From positions 1,364,001 through 1,428,000 of the forward strand of contig NZ_CP100404.1 of assembly GCF_024218775.1 (NCBI RefSeq): DNA of 64,000 bases, read 5' to 3'. Of this stretch, positions 7,499 through 44,774 are shown piece by piece. The DNA comes from Haloarcula marina. Its GTDB lineage: Archaea > Halobacteriota > Halobacteria > Halobacteriales > Haloarculaceae. The notes below the pieces were generated by a model. That model searched no databases. It saw nothing but the letters and a program-made list of their open reading frames with translations, and was not told where the DNA came from. The translations under genes were made by a program, and so were the position numbers. Position 1 is the stretch's first letter, and each line of letters begins with the position of its first letter.

Positions 7499-8752
7499 CT
7501 ACGCGAGCAGGTCCGCAGCGACGCGGCCGCTCTCCAGCGCACCCTGTATCGACGACCAGCGAGTGTAATCGCCAGCCAGCGCGACAGGTCCCGCCGGTGC
7601 GTCGGGGTCCGGGAGCGAGTCGCGGAAGCCCGGTGGCTGTGGGAACTGGGCGAACGGGACGCGGTCGGTCCGCAGGAGTTCGAGGTCGCCGAAACTCGCC
7701 TCGGGATACCACGACCCCACCGCCTCTCTGACCTCGCTTGCCAGCGTCTCGTCGTCTTCCTCGGGGATTCCGAGGAACGTCGCGCTGTAGAGTTCCATCC
7801 CTTCGGGGGCGTACTCCGAGGCGACGGCCGACAGCGGCGCGACGGTGTTCGGTCGCTCGTCGGCGGCGTTGAGGACGATGCGCTTGCCCGTCTTCGGGGC
7901 CATGCTCGTGGGCAGCGAGAAGTACTGGGTGACACATCCGAGGGCGTCCGTCGGGATGCCGTCGACGGCGGTCAACTCGGTGGCCGTCGCGGGGTCCGTG
8001 GCAACGACGGCGGCGTCGGCCGTCAGCGTCTCCGACCCGACTTCGACGGTCGCCTCGTCGCCCTCGCCGCGGACGCCAGTCACGGCCCGGCCCGTCTCGA
8101 TGGTCGCGCCCGCGGCGACGGCGCGGTCGGCCAGTTGCTCGGGCATCGCCTGCATCCCGTCGGCGGGGACGAAAATCTCGCCCTCGGAGAGCATCTTGTA
8201 CGTGTACTCGAAGACGGCGCTGTCGGTCCCGAGCGAGCGGTCCAGCGTGATGCCGCCGTAGAAGGGCGCGGCGAACCGCTCGACGAACCGCTTGGAGAAC
8301 CCCTTTCGACCGAGATAGTCCGCGATGGTGGTGCCGCCGCCGTCGAGTATCGTTTCGGGGTCCCTGTCGGCGAGTTCTCGCTGGAGCCTGAACAGACGGA
8401 GTTTGTCGGCGGTCCGAACCTCTTGGTTGAACACCGTCTGCGGGGCCGCCGTGGGCTTGCGGAGCGGGTCCGACAGCACCGACCGGTGGTTCGGACGGGC
8501 GATAGTCGCGCCGGGGGTGAAGGGCCGCGGTGACAGCGCCTCCACGTCGAGTTCGCGCTGGACCGCGGGGTACGCCGAGAAGATGACCTGAAACCCGCGG
8601 TCGAACGTGTAGCCGTCCGCGCGGGCGGTGCGGACGCGGCCGCCCACGTCGTCGCGTTCCTCGAATACGGTCACGTCCAGTCCTGCCTCGGCGAGGTGGC
8701 GGGCCGCGACGAGGCCCGCGAGGCCACCACCGGCGACAACGGCGTCGGTCAT
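7499..8752 (-). CDS. FAD-dependent amine oxidase/phytoene desaturase-like oxidoreductase
   Basis: 417 residues from the ATG at 8752. The dinucleotide-binding motif VAGGGLAGLVAARHLAEAG is at residues 5-23, followed by ERDDVGGR, the second FAD-contact motif of the phytoene-desaturase/protoporphyrinogen-oxidase/amine-oxidase family. The C-terminal FAD motif is ALAGDYTRWSSIQGALESGR. An upstream in-frame TTG is an unlikely start. No phytoene synthase is adjacent, so the substrate (carotenoid, amine or porphyrin) is open. It is divergent from a threonine-synthase-like gene, with 82 bases between starts. Confidence 0.8.
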   Translation of the reverse strand: MTDAVVAGGGLAGLVAARHLAEAGLDVTVFEERDDVGGRVRTARADGYTFDRGFQVIFSAYPAVQRELDVEALSPRPFTPGATIARPNHRSVLSDPLRKPTAAPQTVFNQEVRTADKLRLFRLQRELADRDPETILDGGGTTIADYLGRKGFSKRFVERFAAPFYGGITLDRSLGTDSAVFEYTYKMLSEGEIFVPADGMQAMPEQLADRAVAAGATIETGRAVTGVRGEGDEATVEVGSETLTADAAVVATDPATATELTAVDGIPTDALGCVTQYFSLPTSMAPKTGKRIVLNAADERPNTVAPLSAVASEYAPEGMELYSATFLGIPEEDDETLASEVREAVGSWYPEASFGDLELLRTDRVPFAQFPQPPGFRDSLPDPDAPAGPVALAGDYTRWSSIQGALESGRVAADLLA

Positions 8753-14276: not shown

Positions 14277-14543
14277 ATGAAGAAGCTCATCATCCACGGG
14301 GACCCCGGCCTCCGGAAGGGCGGCCGCATCGAGTACGACGGCGCGGAGTACGAGGTGTTCTCGGTCACGCGGCAGGGTGACTGGCACGGCCCCGAGCGGC
14401 CGCAACTGTGGTGTACTATCGGCTCCGAAGACGAAGAGGAGACGTTCCAGACCCAGGAGTACATCCCCATGCACCTCGATACGGAGAACGTCGACGCCGA
14501 GGCCGTCACCGTCCTCCGCGAACGCGCGCCGCCCGCCGAGTAA
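14277..14543 (+). CDS. HAH_0734 family protein (function unknown)
   Basis: 88 residues beginning MKKLIIHGDPGLRKGG. It is a small acidic strand-rich protein of the conserved haloarchaeal HAH_0734 type (name from memory), usually found beside the L44e gene as here. It has no cysteines, membrane segment or signal. The conserved RKGGRIEYDGAEYEV segment may form a small beta-barrel. The start was chosen from the leaderless promoter spacing and the family N-terminus; 21 further in-frame codons upstream are probably untranslated. It converges with the DUF2298 gene; the copied 91-bp unit lies between them. Confidence 0.7.
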   Translation: MKKLIIHGDPGLRKGGRIEYDGAEYEVFSVTRQGDWHGPERPQLWCTIGSEDEEETFQTQEYIPMHLDTENVDAEAVTVLRERAPPAE

Positions 14544-14544
14544 C

Positions 14545-14726
14545 GCGGCTCAGAGCTGTTCTTGGTGGACGCGGTAGATGACGACGCCGCCGGACCGTTT
14601 TACCGGCGTCACGCCCGAGAGGTGGTCGATAGTCAGCGGCTCAGAGCTGTTCTTGGTGGACGCGGTAGATGACGACGCCGCCGGACCGTTTTACCGGCGT
14701 CACGCCCGAGAGGTGGTCGATAGTCA
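14545..14726. repeat. perfect tandem duplication, two 91-bp units
   Basis: Bases 14545-14635 and 14636-14726 are identical over all 91 positions, each beginning GCGGCTCAGAGCTGTTC and ending GGTCGATAGTCA. The second unit contains the last 28 codons and stop of the DUF2298 gene (minus strand); the first unit is a non-coding copy just beyond the stop. The unit length is not a multiple of three. The identity implies a very recent event or an assembly duplication. Confidence 0.95.
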
Positions 14727-16962
14727 CGTCGCCGTAGCGCGCTCGCTCGGCCGGGCCGACGTAGACGTACCGCACGTCGTACTCACGTAAGAGCGCGCGC
14801 TGTCGGGTCGATGCCCCGGTGTATATCGCTTCGACGTCCGCGACTCGATTCTGATAGACGCTGTCGTTGCGATACTGCGCCTCGTGGAACCACCCGGCCA
14901 CGGTGGGCAGGCCGGTCAGACTCGCCGGTGCGCTCGCGCCTTCGCCGTCGTCGGGGTTCCACCGGTAGCCTGCCGGGGCGGCCGTGACGATCGTCGGTCG
15001 CCCCTCGACGGTCCGGTCCAGCCAGCGGATGGCCTCGGCTTCTCTCGGGTGGTCCTCGTTCAGATAGGCCGTCCCGTTCAGGGTCGCGGGTCCGGTCGCC
15101 TCCGCGTGGTTCGAGAGCGCGAACGCGCCGTACAACGAGGTGGAGACGACCAGCAGGGCCACGAGCGCGCGCGTGCCCACGCTGGTCCACTGCCGTCGCG
15201 ACTCCGCGCTCGGCCGCCAGCGGGCGACCAGCCACGCCAGCACCGGCCCGACGGCGGCGGCCCACAGCACCCACACCTGCATGTACGTCTTGAACACCGT
15301 GTTCATCCGGCCGATGTTCTCCTTCACGAAGACGAACTCGACCAAGAGGACCAGTCCCGCGCCCGCGAGGATGAGCACCGCCTCGAAGTCCATCGGACCG
15401 TCGCCCCCGTCGGCCAACGTCGGGAACGCCGGGAGCGTTCGCTCCAGTCTCGGGGACCGAGCCAACAGCCAGGTTCCGACGAGTAGCGGCCCGAGCAGAC
15501 CGACGGCGGCCACGTCGAGTGTGGCGCCGAGGAAGACGAGGCCGACCGTTGCGAGACCGGCGATGCGCGCCCGGCGGGTCCCCAGCGCGCTTCCGACCTG
15601 CGCGTAGAGGTAGAGACCGAACGGGACGAGGAACACGCCGTGAACCGCCAGCAGTTCCAGCAGCGAGGTTCGGTCCGGGAGGACGGCGATTTCACGGCCG
15701 CTCGCGGCCCCCAACCAGAACGGCAGCGACCACAGGAGGCCGATGGCGACGATACCGACGGCGACGGCGACTGCGATGCCGATTCGCAGTCCCTCGTGGC
15801 CGAGGCCGTCGAACCGCAGGCGTTCGCCGACGCTGTTAGGGAGGAGCGTCGTGGGGTCGGCGGGCGCGACGGCGACGGTCAGCATTGCCAGCCCCGCCAC
15901 CGACGGGAACGACCACGTGTTCGTCACGGCCATCAACCCGGCGACGGCGGGGAGCGCGCCGAACAACAGCGCCAGCCGACGCCGCCACTCGACGGCGGGC
16001 GTCTGGAAGTAGCTGAGACACAGCGCGGCCGCCAACAGCAAAAAGCCCGTACTCATCATGTGGGCGTGCATGTCGCCGTTGAGCCACGCGAACAGGGGGA
16101 ACTCGTCGATGACGAACGCGGCGCTCGGTTCGTACGTCACGAAGTCCGCGGCGTCGTCGGTGATGACACGGCTGGCGTCCCAGTAACTGAACTGTCCCGG
16201 GCCGGCCGCCAACCCGTCGAGTTCGTAGCCAGCGTTGGTCGCCACCCACCGTGCGGGGCCGTCCGGTAACAGCCAGATGAGGAATCTGGCGGGCGTCGAG
16301 AAGTTGCTGGCGATGCCGACGAAAAAGGCCGACAGCGCGGCCGCGAGACGACGCGGGACGCCCCGGTCGGCGGCGATGGCCCCAGCGAGGCCGTACGTCG
16401 CCGTCACGAGCGTCGCGTAGAAGCCCGCGAGCGCGAGGTTGTAGGCGTACTGGCCCGCGGTTCCCGTCAAGCGGGTGAGGATAGCGGCGACGAGGTGGCC
16501 GCCGTAGTAGTACGCGACCGGTTCGCCCGCGAACCACATGTCCTCCGGCGGCAGGCTATCGGCCCGGAGGAGGGACTGCAAGAGACCGAAGTCGAGGAAC
16601 TTCTCGCCGCCGATGGGGATTATCACGGGGTCGAGCGCCCGTATCGCGACGAGGAAGCAGAAGGCGAGTGTGAACACGCCAGCGACTTCGGCGTAAGCGC
16701 GGCCGTCTACCGGGTCGACCGTGCGCACGGCCACCGCGGCGGCGGCCACGAGGACGACGAGTCCGCCCCAGACGCCAGCGGTGAGCGAGATGCGGCCGAC
16801 GAAGTAGGTCACGAGCCACAGTATCGTCAGCGCGACCGGAATCCCGAAGGCGACGCCGCGGTCGGCGAAACGGGGGAACAGGACGGCGGCGACAGTCGCA
16901 CCGACGTAACACAACAGCAGATAAAGCGCGAGCCAGAGGGCGACGAGGCCGTACTCCATCAC
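14641..16962 (-). CDS. DUF2298 (Chlor_Arch_YYY type) polytopic membrane protein
   Basis: 773 residues with more than ten membrane helices. The tyrosine triplet of this family is in EPVAYYYGGH near residue 150. The family, named for the YYY motif, consists of large membrane proteins resembling GT-C glycosyltransferases; its biochemical role is not established. A soluble region of about 130 residues closes the protein. The start is ATG (16962 or 16959). A TATA-like box lies 25 bases upstream and is divergent from the GT2 gene, which may act in the same surface-glycan process. The last codons lie within a tandemly duplicated segment. Confidence 0.85.
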   Translation of the reverse strand: MMEYGLVALWLALYLLLCYVGATVAAVLFPRFADRGVAFGIPVALTILWLVTYFVGRISLTAGVWGGLVVLVAAAAVAVRTVDPVDGRAYAEVAGVFTLAFCFLVAIRALDPVIIPIGGEKFLDFGLLQSLLRADSLPPEDMWFAGEPVAYYYGGHLVAAILTRLTGTAGQYAYNLALAGFYATLVTATYGLAGAIAADRGVPRRLAAALSAFFVGIASNFSTPARFLIWLLPDGPARWVATNAGYELDGLAAGPGQFSYWDASRVITDDAADFVTYEPSAAFVIDEFPLFAWLNGDMHAHMMSTGFLLLAAALCLSYFQTPAVEWRRRLALLFGALPAVAGLMAVTNTWSFPSVAGLAMLTVAVAPADPTTLLPNSVGERLRFDGLGHEGLRIGIAVAVAVGIVAIGLLWSLPFWLGAASGREIAVLPDRTSLLELLAVHGVFLVPFGLYLYAQVGSALGTRRARIAGLATVGLVFLGATLDVAAVGLLGPLLVGTWLLARSPRLERTLPAFPTLADGGDGPMDFEAVLILAGAGLVLLVEFVFVKENIGRMNTVFKTYMQVWVLWAAAVGPVLAWLVARWRPSAESRRQWTSVGTRALVALLVVSTSLYGAFALSNHAEATGPATLNGTAYLNEDHPREAEAIRWLDRTVEGRPTIVTAAPAGYRWNPDDGEGASAPASLTGLPTVAGWFHEAQYRNDSVYQNRVADVEAIYTGASTRQRALLREYDVRYVYVGPAERARYGDVTIDHLSGVTPVKRSGGVVIYRVHQEQL

Positions 16963-18366: not shown

Positions 18367-18388
18367 GGGGCCTCGGATATGAAGAGGT

Positions 18389-18463
18389 AGCGGGATGGGA
18401 TAGCCAGGAGATTCCGGCGGGCTCATAACCCGCAGATCGGTAGTTCAAATCTACCTCCCGCTA
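18389..18463 (+). tRNA. initiator tRNA-Met (CAT)
   Basis: 75 nt without an intron or encoded CCA. The acceptor stem pairs AGCGGGA with TCCCGCT, giving the A1-U72 end typical of archaeal initiators. The anticodon arm is GCGGG-CTCATAA-CCCGC with CAT in the loop and three consecutive G-C pairs next to the loop, another initiator feature. The T arm is GGTAG-TTCAAAT-CTACC, followed by discriminator A. It lies between GtrA and hpt. Confidence 0.95.
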
Positions 18464-18471
18464 TGTTCTAT

Positions 18472-37621: not shown

Positions 37622-38601
37622 GAGTCGTCACCCCGGTCGAAGATACCTTCAATGGCGTCTCTCGCAGCCGTAATCCGGTCGTTCGTTTCGGACGCGCCGC
37701 CGTAGGCGACGGCCCGGAACAGGTCGGTCAGCCGCCACACCGGCCCGGCGGGCAGACCGCTGTCGACGGCCCGCCGAGCGTACTCCCCGGGCGTCGTCGC
37801 GTCGGGGTTCGACACCGGGACGGCACCGACGAGTCGTTCCCACGCCTCGCGAACCGATAGCGGGCCGGTGTCGGTCGCCCCGGATTCGTCGGGGGCTGGC
37901 GGGATGTCGGTCGCGTTTCGGGCGTCCTCCGTCGTCGGGTCGTCGGGCCGGAGGAATGCAGGGCGGTCGAAGCCGCCACGGAGGGGCGCGAGGAATCCGC
38001 CGCCGCGGAGGCCGGTAAGGGAGCGAACCGGCGCGGCGATGAGGGCGACGGCGGCGGCCGGAAGTGCGGCGAGCGAGCGGCCGAGGACCCGTCCTATCGG
38101 ACCGATACCGGCGGCAAGGCCGCGACCGACGCCGCGGACCGCGCTCCCGACGCCGCGTGCCACGGTCGCGAGCGCCGAGGACCCGGTGAGTAGGATGGCC
38201 GTCGTGACCTGCGGAATCCGCTGGACGATGGCGGGTAGCCGGAGACGGGCGAGGAGCGAGGTGAGGACGCCGCCGTCGACTCCCTCCGAGGAGCGCACGG
38301 CGAGGACGCCGACGTAGCCGACGGCGGCGAGACCGAGCAACGCGAAGAACGTCGAGAGCCACGAGAAATCCGGAAGCCCGCCGCCACCGCCAGTCGAAGC
38401 GTCGGGGACGGGCGTTGGGGTCGGCGTGGGAGTTGCCGTCGGTGTCGGGGTCGGGGTCGGTGTGGCCCTCGGCGTCGATGCCTCGACCGGAGCGGGCTGG
38501 TCGAGGCCGACGTCGAGAGCCGCCGGAAACAGCGCTGTCGCGAACACGACGGCACAGACACAGAGGAGGGCGAGAGCCGCACGGACGAGGGTAGAGGGCA
38601 C
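37618..38601 (-). CDS. DUF4129 domain protein with signal peptide
   Basis: 327 residues from a GTG start. A signal peptide (residues 1-28) is followed by a Pro/Thr spacer of alternating TP ([14 protein letters not shown]), a membrane helix near 85-105, and a C-terminal DUF4129 domain (about 245-325; REAWERLVGAV, TTPGEYARRAVDSGLP and LTDLFRAVAYGG). DUF4129 occurs at the C-terminus of transglutaminase-like proteins, but no transglutaminase core is present here. First gene of the DUF58 operon; a TATA-like AATACTTTAG lies about 28 bases upstream. Confidence 0.82.
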   Translation of the reverse strand: MPSTLVRAALALLCVCAVVFATALFPAALDVGLDQPAPVEASTPRATPTPTPTPTATPTPTPTPVPDASTGGGGGLPDFSWLSTFFALLGLAAVGYVGVLAVRSSEGVDGGVLTSLLARLRLPAIVQRIPQVTTAILLTGSSALATVARGVGSAVRGVGRGLAAGIGPIGRVLGRSLAALPAAAVALIAAPVRSLTGLRGGGFLAPLRGGFDRPAFLRPDDPTTEDARNATDIPPAPDESGATDTGPLSVREAWERLVGAVPVSNPDATTPGEYARRAVDSGLPAGPVWRLTDLFRAVAYGGASETNDRITAARDAIEGIFDRGDDS

Positions 38602-42656: not shown

Positions 42657-44774
42657 TTATTCGTCGCGGCGCGTCGCGAGGAGCGCGGCGGCCACGATGG
42701 CCAGCAGCGCAACGACGGCGGTGAAGCCGGGGCCGGACCCTTCCGTGGTCACGGTGGCCGTGGGTTCGCTCTCGCCGCCGCTGTCGCTGTCGTCGTTCTC
42801 CCCGCTACTGTCGCTGTCTTCGGTACCGCCGTCGGAGTCCGATCCGCTCGACGAATCGTCGCCTTGATCGTCTTCGACGGATTCAGTCGCGGTTTCGGTC
42901 TCCGGTGCTTCAGTCTCCGTCTCGTCCTCGGTGGACTCGGTTTCGGATTCCGTCGCCGGTTCGTCGGTTTCCGTCTCCGTATCGTCGTCAACGTTACCGG
43001 CGTCGCCGCCGCCACCGCTGCTGCCGCCGGAACTACCACCGGACGTTCCGTCCTCGGTCACCGTGACGATGGTGCTCTGTGAGCCGATGGTCACCTCGTT
43101 GTTTCGGACGTACTTGAACTCGTGCTCGAAGGTGACAGTGTCGGTACTGCCTGCGTTGACCGTGATTTCCTTCGTGTCCCTGAGCGTGCCGTTGACTTTC
43201 AGTTCGGCGGTGTAGGTTCCGCTCGCGTCACCGCTGTTCTGGATGTCGGCCGTGATAGTCGTCGCCTCGTCCTCGGTGGTCGAACTCGGGGCCGAAATCG
43301 AGGTGACGCTGAAGATGGACCGGGCTTGCACGTCGACCGTCTCGGTCTGTCGACCGACGCGGACCGTCGTCGACCCGGACCCGTCGTGGGTCGCTTCGAA
43401 GGAGACGGTGGTCGTCGAGTCGGCCGCGATGTCGATTTGTTGCACGTCTTGGGCCGACGTATCGTCGCCGACGACGACGCCCCAGTTCGGCGACGCACTG
43501 GTCGAACCGGTGTTCTCGAACGTCGCGTCGACGGTGAACGGTGACGCTTGCTCCGCGGTATCGGGCGCTGAGACTGACGTTACACGTAGCGCGGCGAACT
43601 TCTCCACCGTGCCGTCGTCGGTACCGATGAACATGTCGGTTCCGGAGATGGCGGGCGCAGTCGCGACGGTGTCGCCGTTCGGTTCCACCTGGAAGCGCCC
43701 TTCGCCAGCGTCGGCGTCGATGACGGTGATGTTGCCGTTGTCACCGGCGGCGAAGACGGTATCGTTCGCCGTCGAGACGGCGATACCGAGTGTCCCCGCG
43801 GTGTCGTACGTCTCCGTCCAGACGGCCGAACCGCTGGAATCGATGTCGTGGGCGGCGACGATGCCGCTCTGTGACCCGACGACGGCCACGCCCTTGTGGA
43901 TGGCGGGGCTGGAGAAGACGCCGTCGTAGGTTGAGGTGTCGCTCCACTGCTGGTTGCCGTCGAAGTCGTAGGCGGCGACCGTGCCGTCGGTCGCGGTGAC
44001 GACGACGGTCTCCGTTTCGTCGTGGACGGCGGGCGCGTTGATAGCGCCACCGGCCACGTCGACCTGCCACTGCTCGTTGCCGTCACCGCTGTCGAGGCGG
44101 TGGAGTGCCCCGCTGCGGTCGCCGACGAACAGCGCGTCGTTATCCTCGTCGAGCGCGGGCGTCGTCCGACCGGCCGCCGAGCCGAGGTCGTGGGACCAAC
44201 TCAGCGAGCCGTCGGAGGCGTACGCGTAGACGAAGCCGTCGTTGCTGGCGACGTAGACGGTTCCGTCGCTGGCGACGGTGGCCGACCCGTAGATAGCACC
44301 GTTCGGGTCACTCGCCTCCCAGTTCTGCGACCCGTCGCTCGCGTCGAGACTGTAGACGTAGCCGTCCTCGGTCGCCGCGTAGACAGCCCCGTCGTGGACG
44401 GCGGGCGTGCCGTACACTTGGCCGTTCACCGTCGCGGACCACGTCTCGGAGCCGTCGGCGACGCTGTAGGCGCGCACTTCGTCGTCGTCACCGACGTAGA
44501 CCGTGCCGTCGACGACGGCCGGACTGGACGCGATGTCTGTCCCGTCGCCGCTGTCGGTCCCCCACTCGAAGTTGAGGCCGCCGAACTGGACGGGCGTCGT
44601 CGTGTTGCCGGTGTTGGTCGTGTCTGCTTGATAACTGCTCCACGCGCCGGTGTTACCCGCGTTCCCGGTGTGAGAGGATGCCGCGACGGAACCGAGCATT
44701 CCGGCGGGAGCCGCTGCGACCGTCAGCACTGCCAAGACGAGCGCGACGAGCGCCCGTCGTGAGGTATCGCTCAT
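42657..44774 (-). CDS. cell-surface PQQ-like beta-propeller protein with PGF-CTERM anchor
   Basis: 705 residues. A signal peptide (1-32) is followed by a PQQ-like propeller (about 45-395) with repeated blades such as GTVYVGDDDEVRAYSVADGS. Two CARDB-like beta domains follow (about 400-590), then a very acidic Ser/Thr/Glu/Asp spacer (595-675) and a terminal GPGFTAVVALLAIVAAALL helix with RRDE. That is the PGF-CTERM signal processed by archaeosortase, so the protein is lipid-anchored at the surface. Its start codon overlaps the stop of the GH97 gene upstream (ATGA), indicating joint expression and probably a role in binding the glycosidase substrate or product. Confidence 0.85.
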   Translation of the reverse strand: MSDTSRRALVALVLAVLTVAAAPAGMLGSVAASSHTGNAGNTGAWSSYQADTTNTGNTTTPVQFGGLNFEWGTDSGDGTDIASSPAVVDGTVYVGDDDEVRAYSVADGSETWSATVNGQVYGTPAVHDGAVYAATEDGYVYSLDASDGSQNWEASDPNGAIYGSATVASDGTVYVASNDGFVYAYASDGSLSWSHDLGSAAGRTTPALDEDNDALFVGDRSGALHRLDSGDGNEQWQVDVAGGAINAPAVHDETETVVVTATDGTVAAYDFDGNQQWSDTSTYDGVFSSPAIHKGVAVVGSQSGIVAAHDIDSSGSAVWTETYDTAGTLGIAVSTANDTVFAAGDNGNITVIDADAGEGRFQVEPNGDTVATAPAISGTDMFIGTDDGTVEKFAALRVTSVSAPDTAEQASPFTVDATFENTGSTSASPNWGVVVGDDTSAQDVQQIDIAADSTTTVSFEATHDGSGSTTVRVGRQTETVDVQARSIFSVTSISAPSSTTEDEATTITADIQNSGDASGTYTAELKVNGTLRDTKEITVNAGSTDTVTFEHEFKYVRNNEVTIGSQSTIVTVTEDGTSGGSSGGSSGGGGDAGNVDDDTETETDEPATESETESTEDETETEAPETETATESVEDDQGDDSSSGSDSDGGTEDSDSSGENDDSDSGGESEPTATVTTEGSGPGFTAVVALLAIVAAALLATRRDE

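Follow-up and report, generated by a model that had tools for sequence, protein, structure and literature searches.

Within the window, the 64,000-nucleotide stretch of the chromosomal contig (C1) of the Haloarcula marina assembly analysed here, a gene encoding a DUF2298 membrane protein and a DUF7098 gene run towards each other and meet at two adjoining 91-bp units that are identical at 91/91 positions (Table 1). The first unit starts two bases after the TAA stop codon of DUF7098 (14541-14543), the stop codon of DUF2298 (14643-14641) lies inside the second unit, and the spacer between the two stops is 97 nt. The preliminary description of this DNA had reported an exact 91-bp tandem duplication at the end of the DUF2298 gene, and both its exactness and its location are borne out; the 28 codons that were assigned to the coding unit are, more precisely, 27 whole codons and two bases of the 28th, followed by the stop and 5 nt past it, and the convergent DUF7098 gene had gone unmentioned there. 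That the copy does not extend the protein was likewise correct, as the extra unit lies beyond the stop.

Table 1. Features at the 91-bp repeat pair, in coordinates of the window.
Feature	Position	Strand	Description
Convergent DUF7098 gene (PF23384)	14280..14543	+	87 aa from conserved start, intact
First 91-bp copy	14545..14635		Non-coding, 3' of both the DUF2298 and the DUF7098 stop; exact match to 14636-14726
Only new junction of the pair	14635..14636		Blunt, overhang 0; breakpoints without significant homology
Second 91-bp copy	14636..14726		DUF2298 3' end: 27 codons + 2 nt, stop, 5 nt beyond
DUF2298 membrane protein gene	14641..16962	-	773 aa, intact; Pfam PF10060, E 7e-144

Exactness and breakpoints of the pair

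The bases that flank each unit differ, both before and after it, and the run of matches at period 91 is therefore exactly 91 bases long, making the pair blunt, with an overhang of 0 and no flanking homology beyond the unit. A chance origin of two exact copies of this length is far out of reach, and the pair occurs only once in the genome (3.74 Mb, three contigs), across which no further copies of the unit were found. Exact microhomology at the breakpoints is zero, where a short direct repeat would be expected under slippage. We considered slippage driven by homology between the AGTAACG and AGTCACG of the two breakpoints and rejected it, since 775 of 5000 random places reach as high a score as this imperfect similarity, AGT(A/C)ACG, which is no stronger than chance would give; its weakness also counts against a real duplication.

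Deleting either copy leaves DUF7098 and DUF2298 both intact and convergent, with 6 nt between their stops. The extra unit sits past both stops, so that neither reading frame nor promoter is altered by the number of units. As to age, identity over 91 bases limits the divergence of the copies to at most about 3.2% (95%), and two plasmids of H. marina are ~0.65% apart; a real duplication therefore need not postdate the split of the H. marina strains, and to call it "very recent" on the strength of the identity, as had been done, goes too far.

The same locus in relatives

A search of 31 other genomes of the genus recovered the locus in 29, and a broader scan of relatives supplied a wider sample of 79 named loci. 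The convergent DUF7098/DUF2298 pair is kept in 29/29 of the same-genus loci, with stops -4 to 81 nt apart; among the named loci a convergent DUF7098 is present in 58/79, with gaps that range from -23 to 944 nt and exceed 97 in 11 cases. We searched downstream of the gene for its last 60 nt in all 29 genus and 79 named loci and found no copy, the best ungapped match being 31/60 in relatives versus 60/60 in the window. The single-copy state thus holds in close relatives (29/29 and 79/79), which is expected of an artefact too, and by these comparisons the 91-bp duplicate is confined to this lineage or to the assembly at hand.

These comparisons bear on the reading to which we give the least credence, namely that the pair is a functional or switch-like repeat in which a varying number of units would alter RNA ends, antisense overlap or the expression of the convergent genes. 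What speaks for it is solely the position between two convergent genes, where the copy would extend both 3' ends and would make read-through from DUF7098 antisense to the end of DUF2298; against it stand the presence of just two units and the lack of a gene-end copy in every one of the relatives' loci, among which unit number shows no variation. An RNA element, a terminator or a special fold was rejected as well: the Rfam search of the locus returned no match, a scan built for bacteria found no terminator-like site there, and the predicted RNA fold is ordinary (z 0.24 on the plus strand, 1.96 on the minus strand). The suggestion that this is an "unstable, phase-variable-like" site hence finds no support in two units that are without counterpart in relatives, and it is undercut by the reasoning of the preliminary description itself, according to which copy number leaves the protein unchanged.

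Exact tandem pairs elsewhere

Exact tandem matches were scanned stretch by stretch, a procedure by which pairs straddling the seams between stretches could be missed. In the 1.94 Mb of C1 that were covered (58%, overlaps removed), no tandem repeat other than the window pair has a period above 72; the rest have periods between 15 and 36 or multiples of such values, and contig C2, scanned whole, contains no exact blunt pair. The window also holds imperfect repeats with periods of 6-54 bp (42766-42987 and 38399-38477), as well as a tRNA-Met gene (CAT) on the plus strand (18388-18464), which probably accounts for short matches to other haloarchaeal plasmids.

The 79 loci of relatives (649,831 bases) yielded three tandem hits, one of them an imperfect repeat of 75 bp whose overhang is 47. 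The other two, on Haloferax contigs, are exact blunt pairs of 82 bp (L077) and 79 bp (L104), each with one N placed precisely at its junction, for which reason they are very likely overlapping contig ends that were joined without being merged. In these public contigs the two pairs surround a tRNA-Met gene (L077 1426-1589; L104 1432-1589). Besides the window's own, the survey thus met three exact blunt pairs of at least 79 bp, the third being that of contig C3 described below, and all of them show signs of a bad join; that every other exact blunt pair of similar size should do so argues against a real duplication in the window.

A probable redundant end in contig C3

C3, an 18,001-bp contig of the same assembly, carries an exact blunt pair at 8335-8491 and 8492-8648 (157/157, overhang 0), located where an integrase gene ends. 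The contig is a separate version (L157, 1-18001) of a 17.9-kb element that C1 contains twice, head-to-tail, at 2843903-2861779 and 2861761-2879625 (L200, L201). This element encodes a phage-type integrase, its tandem copies share a 19-bp end and adjoin a tRNA-Pro(GGG) gene at C1:2843845-2843916, and a comparison with a phage collection gave no match. Apart from two one-base gaps, C3 equals C1:2861623-2879625, a span that takes in the final 157 bp of the first element copy and reaches to the end of the second, and the 157 bp are present once in each of the two chromosomal copies. The simplest reading of this arrangement is that C3 would be a redundant-ended contig that was circularised untrimmed and then rotated. 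The two chromosomal copies themselves differ by 1 mismatch and 21 gap openings over 17,882 columns, a gap-rich and mismatch-poor difference that resembles what consensus errors of long reads would leave in a repeat.

The record of C1 opens 23 bp ahead of an ORF, that of C3 50 bp ahead of one and that of C2 some 95 bp ahead of a ParA gene, the last as read from the annotation of strain YSSS71. With an ORF shortly after its first base, each of the three contigs looks as though it had been rotated, and seams are therefore to be expected inside the records.

Repeats on H. marina plasmids

The first 20 kb of C2 match the Haloarcula marina YSSS71 plasmid NZ_CP100408.1 at 99.2% identity, so that the genome probably belongs to another strain of H. 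marina. The full comparison, from which alignments of fewer than 1,500 columns or below 95% identity were dropped, comprises 260,398 aligned columns with 1,692 mismatches (about 99.35% identity). The two plasmids differ by two tandem duplications, of 44 and 54 bp, and that small duplications do distinguish H. marina strains speaks for a real event in the window. The 44-bp duplication (C2:241419-241506; L181), which is absent from the YSSS71 plasmid and is likely a slippage event, has CTGTCT at both ends; in contrast to the window pair, it comes with a flanking match of 6 bp and with one mismatch between its copies, which tells against the window pair being of the same real kind. More generally, in the seven repeats that were measured on these two plasmids, some of which number more than two copies, the period match extends 6 to 84 bp past a single unit, whereas the overhang is 0 in the pairs of the window and of C3.

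Origin of the 91-bp pair

With a confidence somewhat above even, we regard the 91-bp pair as an artefact of assembly joining, which is the most likely of the three readings; our gradings of these are judgements and not computed probabilities. The artefact is favoured because the pair is exact, blunt, unique in the scanned part of C1 and similar to that of C3, and because the three other such pairs bear join signatures. The preliminary description had rightly posed a choice between a recent event and an assembly artefact, and evidence from this very assembly leans towards a faulty join. Two ends sharing 91 bases would have been joined with the overlap left in, these being probably both termini of the circular chromosome contig, and rotation of the record would then have placed the seam at 1,378,635 of C1. 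In that case the unit would occur once in the true sequence, and the convergent DUF7098 and DUF2298 would be separated by 6 nt. We infer that C1 has, at the 91-bp pair, the same fault as C3.

Such overlaps are kept elsewhere in this assembly in C3 (157 bp) and not in C2, and it counts against the artefact that the fault is not a general one, since the whole of C2 is without an exact blunt pair. The overlaps of 91 and 157 bp are also unequal, so that no single k-mer length covers both, and we rejected a common k-mer overlap for all seams on this ground. The idea of one closure pair per replicon was also discarded, as the 44-bp pair of C2 has flanking homology and a mismatch.

Other points, too, run counter to an artefact. 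A short blunt duplication can be genuine, and both genes at the locus are spared, an outcome seen in only 20.7% of random 91-bp placements (10,317/49,899, in a stretch of H. marina plasmid). The latter equally supports the main alternative, a real, recent and selectively neutral tandem duplication without flanking homology, to which we assign a smaller though considerable likelihood. By end joining of a staggered break or by template switching, the last 91 bp of DUF2298 would have been copied into the 6-nt gap before DUF7098, and the copy would have been retained because neither gene was damaged, each merely acquiring a longer 3' untranslated region. The gaps of -4 to 81 nt within the genus (29/29) also favour this alternative, as they indicate that the spacer tolerates changes in length. 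It seems very doubtful, in turn, that we are dealing with a homology-free haloarchaeal duplication that has given near-abutting convergent genes a 97-nt spacer and both of their transcripts a new complementary 3' stretch.

If the pair is a join artefact, it offers a simple screen, in which, for finished genomes, an exact repeat of two copies that has no flanking homology at all is taken as a suspected seam; if it is real, it is an ordinary neutral duplication. Our literature search yielded background only, with nothing on the 91-bp locus among the results listed.

Comparison with known systems

Phase-variable tandem repeats, or contingency loci, are made up of tandem units near a gene. The window pair differs from them in consisting of two long units beyond a stop codon, whose number would change neither frame nor promoter and which are invariant in relatives in that none has a second copy, and nothing favours phase variation here.

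A closer likeness is to the spontaneous tandem duplications of prokaryotes, with which the pair shares two head-to-tail copies, a neutral position and the absence of any broken gene. Work on Salmonella deduced that true spontaneous duplications have 11 bp or more of microhomology at the junction (PMC3411829); the window pair, without flanking microhomology, is unlike the duplications held to be true there and unlike the measured repeats of C2 and of the YSSS71 plasmid, a contrast that favours the artefact.

The remaining comparison is with the untrimmed end overlap of circular contigs. Two reports (PMC4699355, PMC9980784), the former with respect to long-read assemblies, describe overlapping ends in contigs of circles and a rotation by which the duplicated bases come to lie in the middle. 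The likeness consists in exact duplicated bases at the meeting ends that rotation would have moved inward, and C3 fits this picture. The 91-bp pair differs in having intact genes on both sides, and for C1 it is a candidate only for a seam of this kind.
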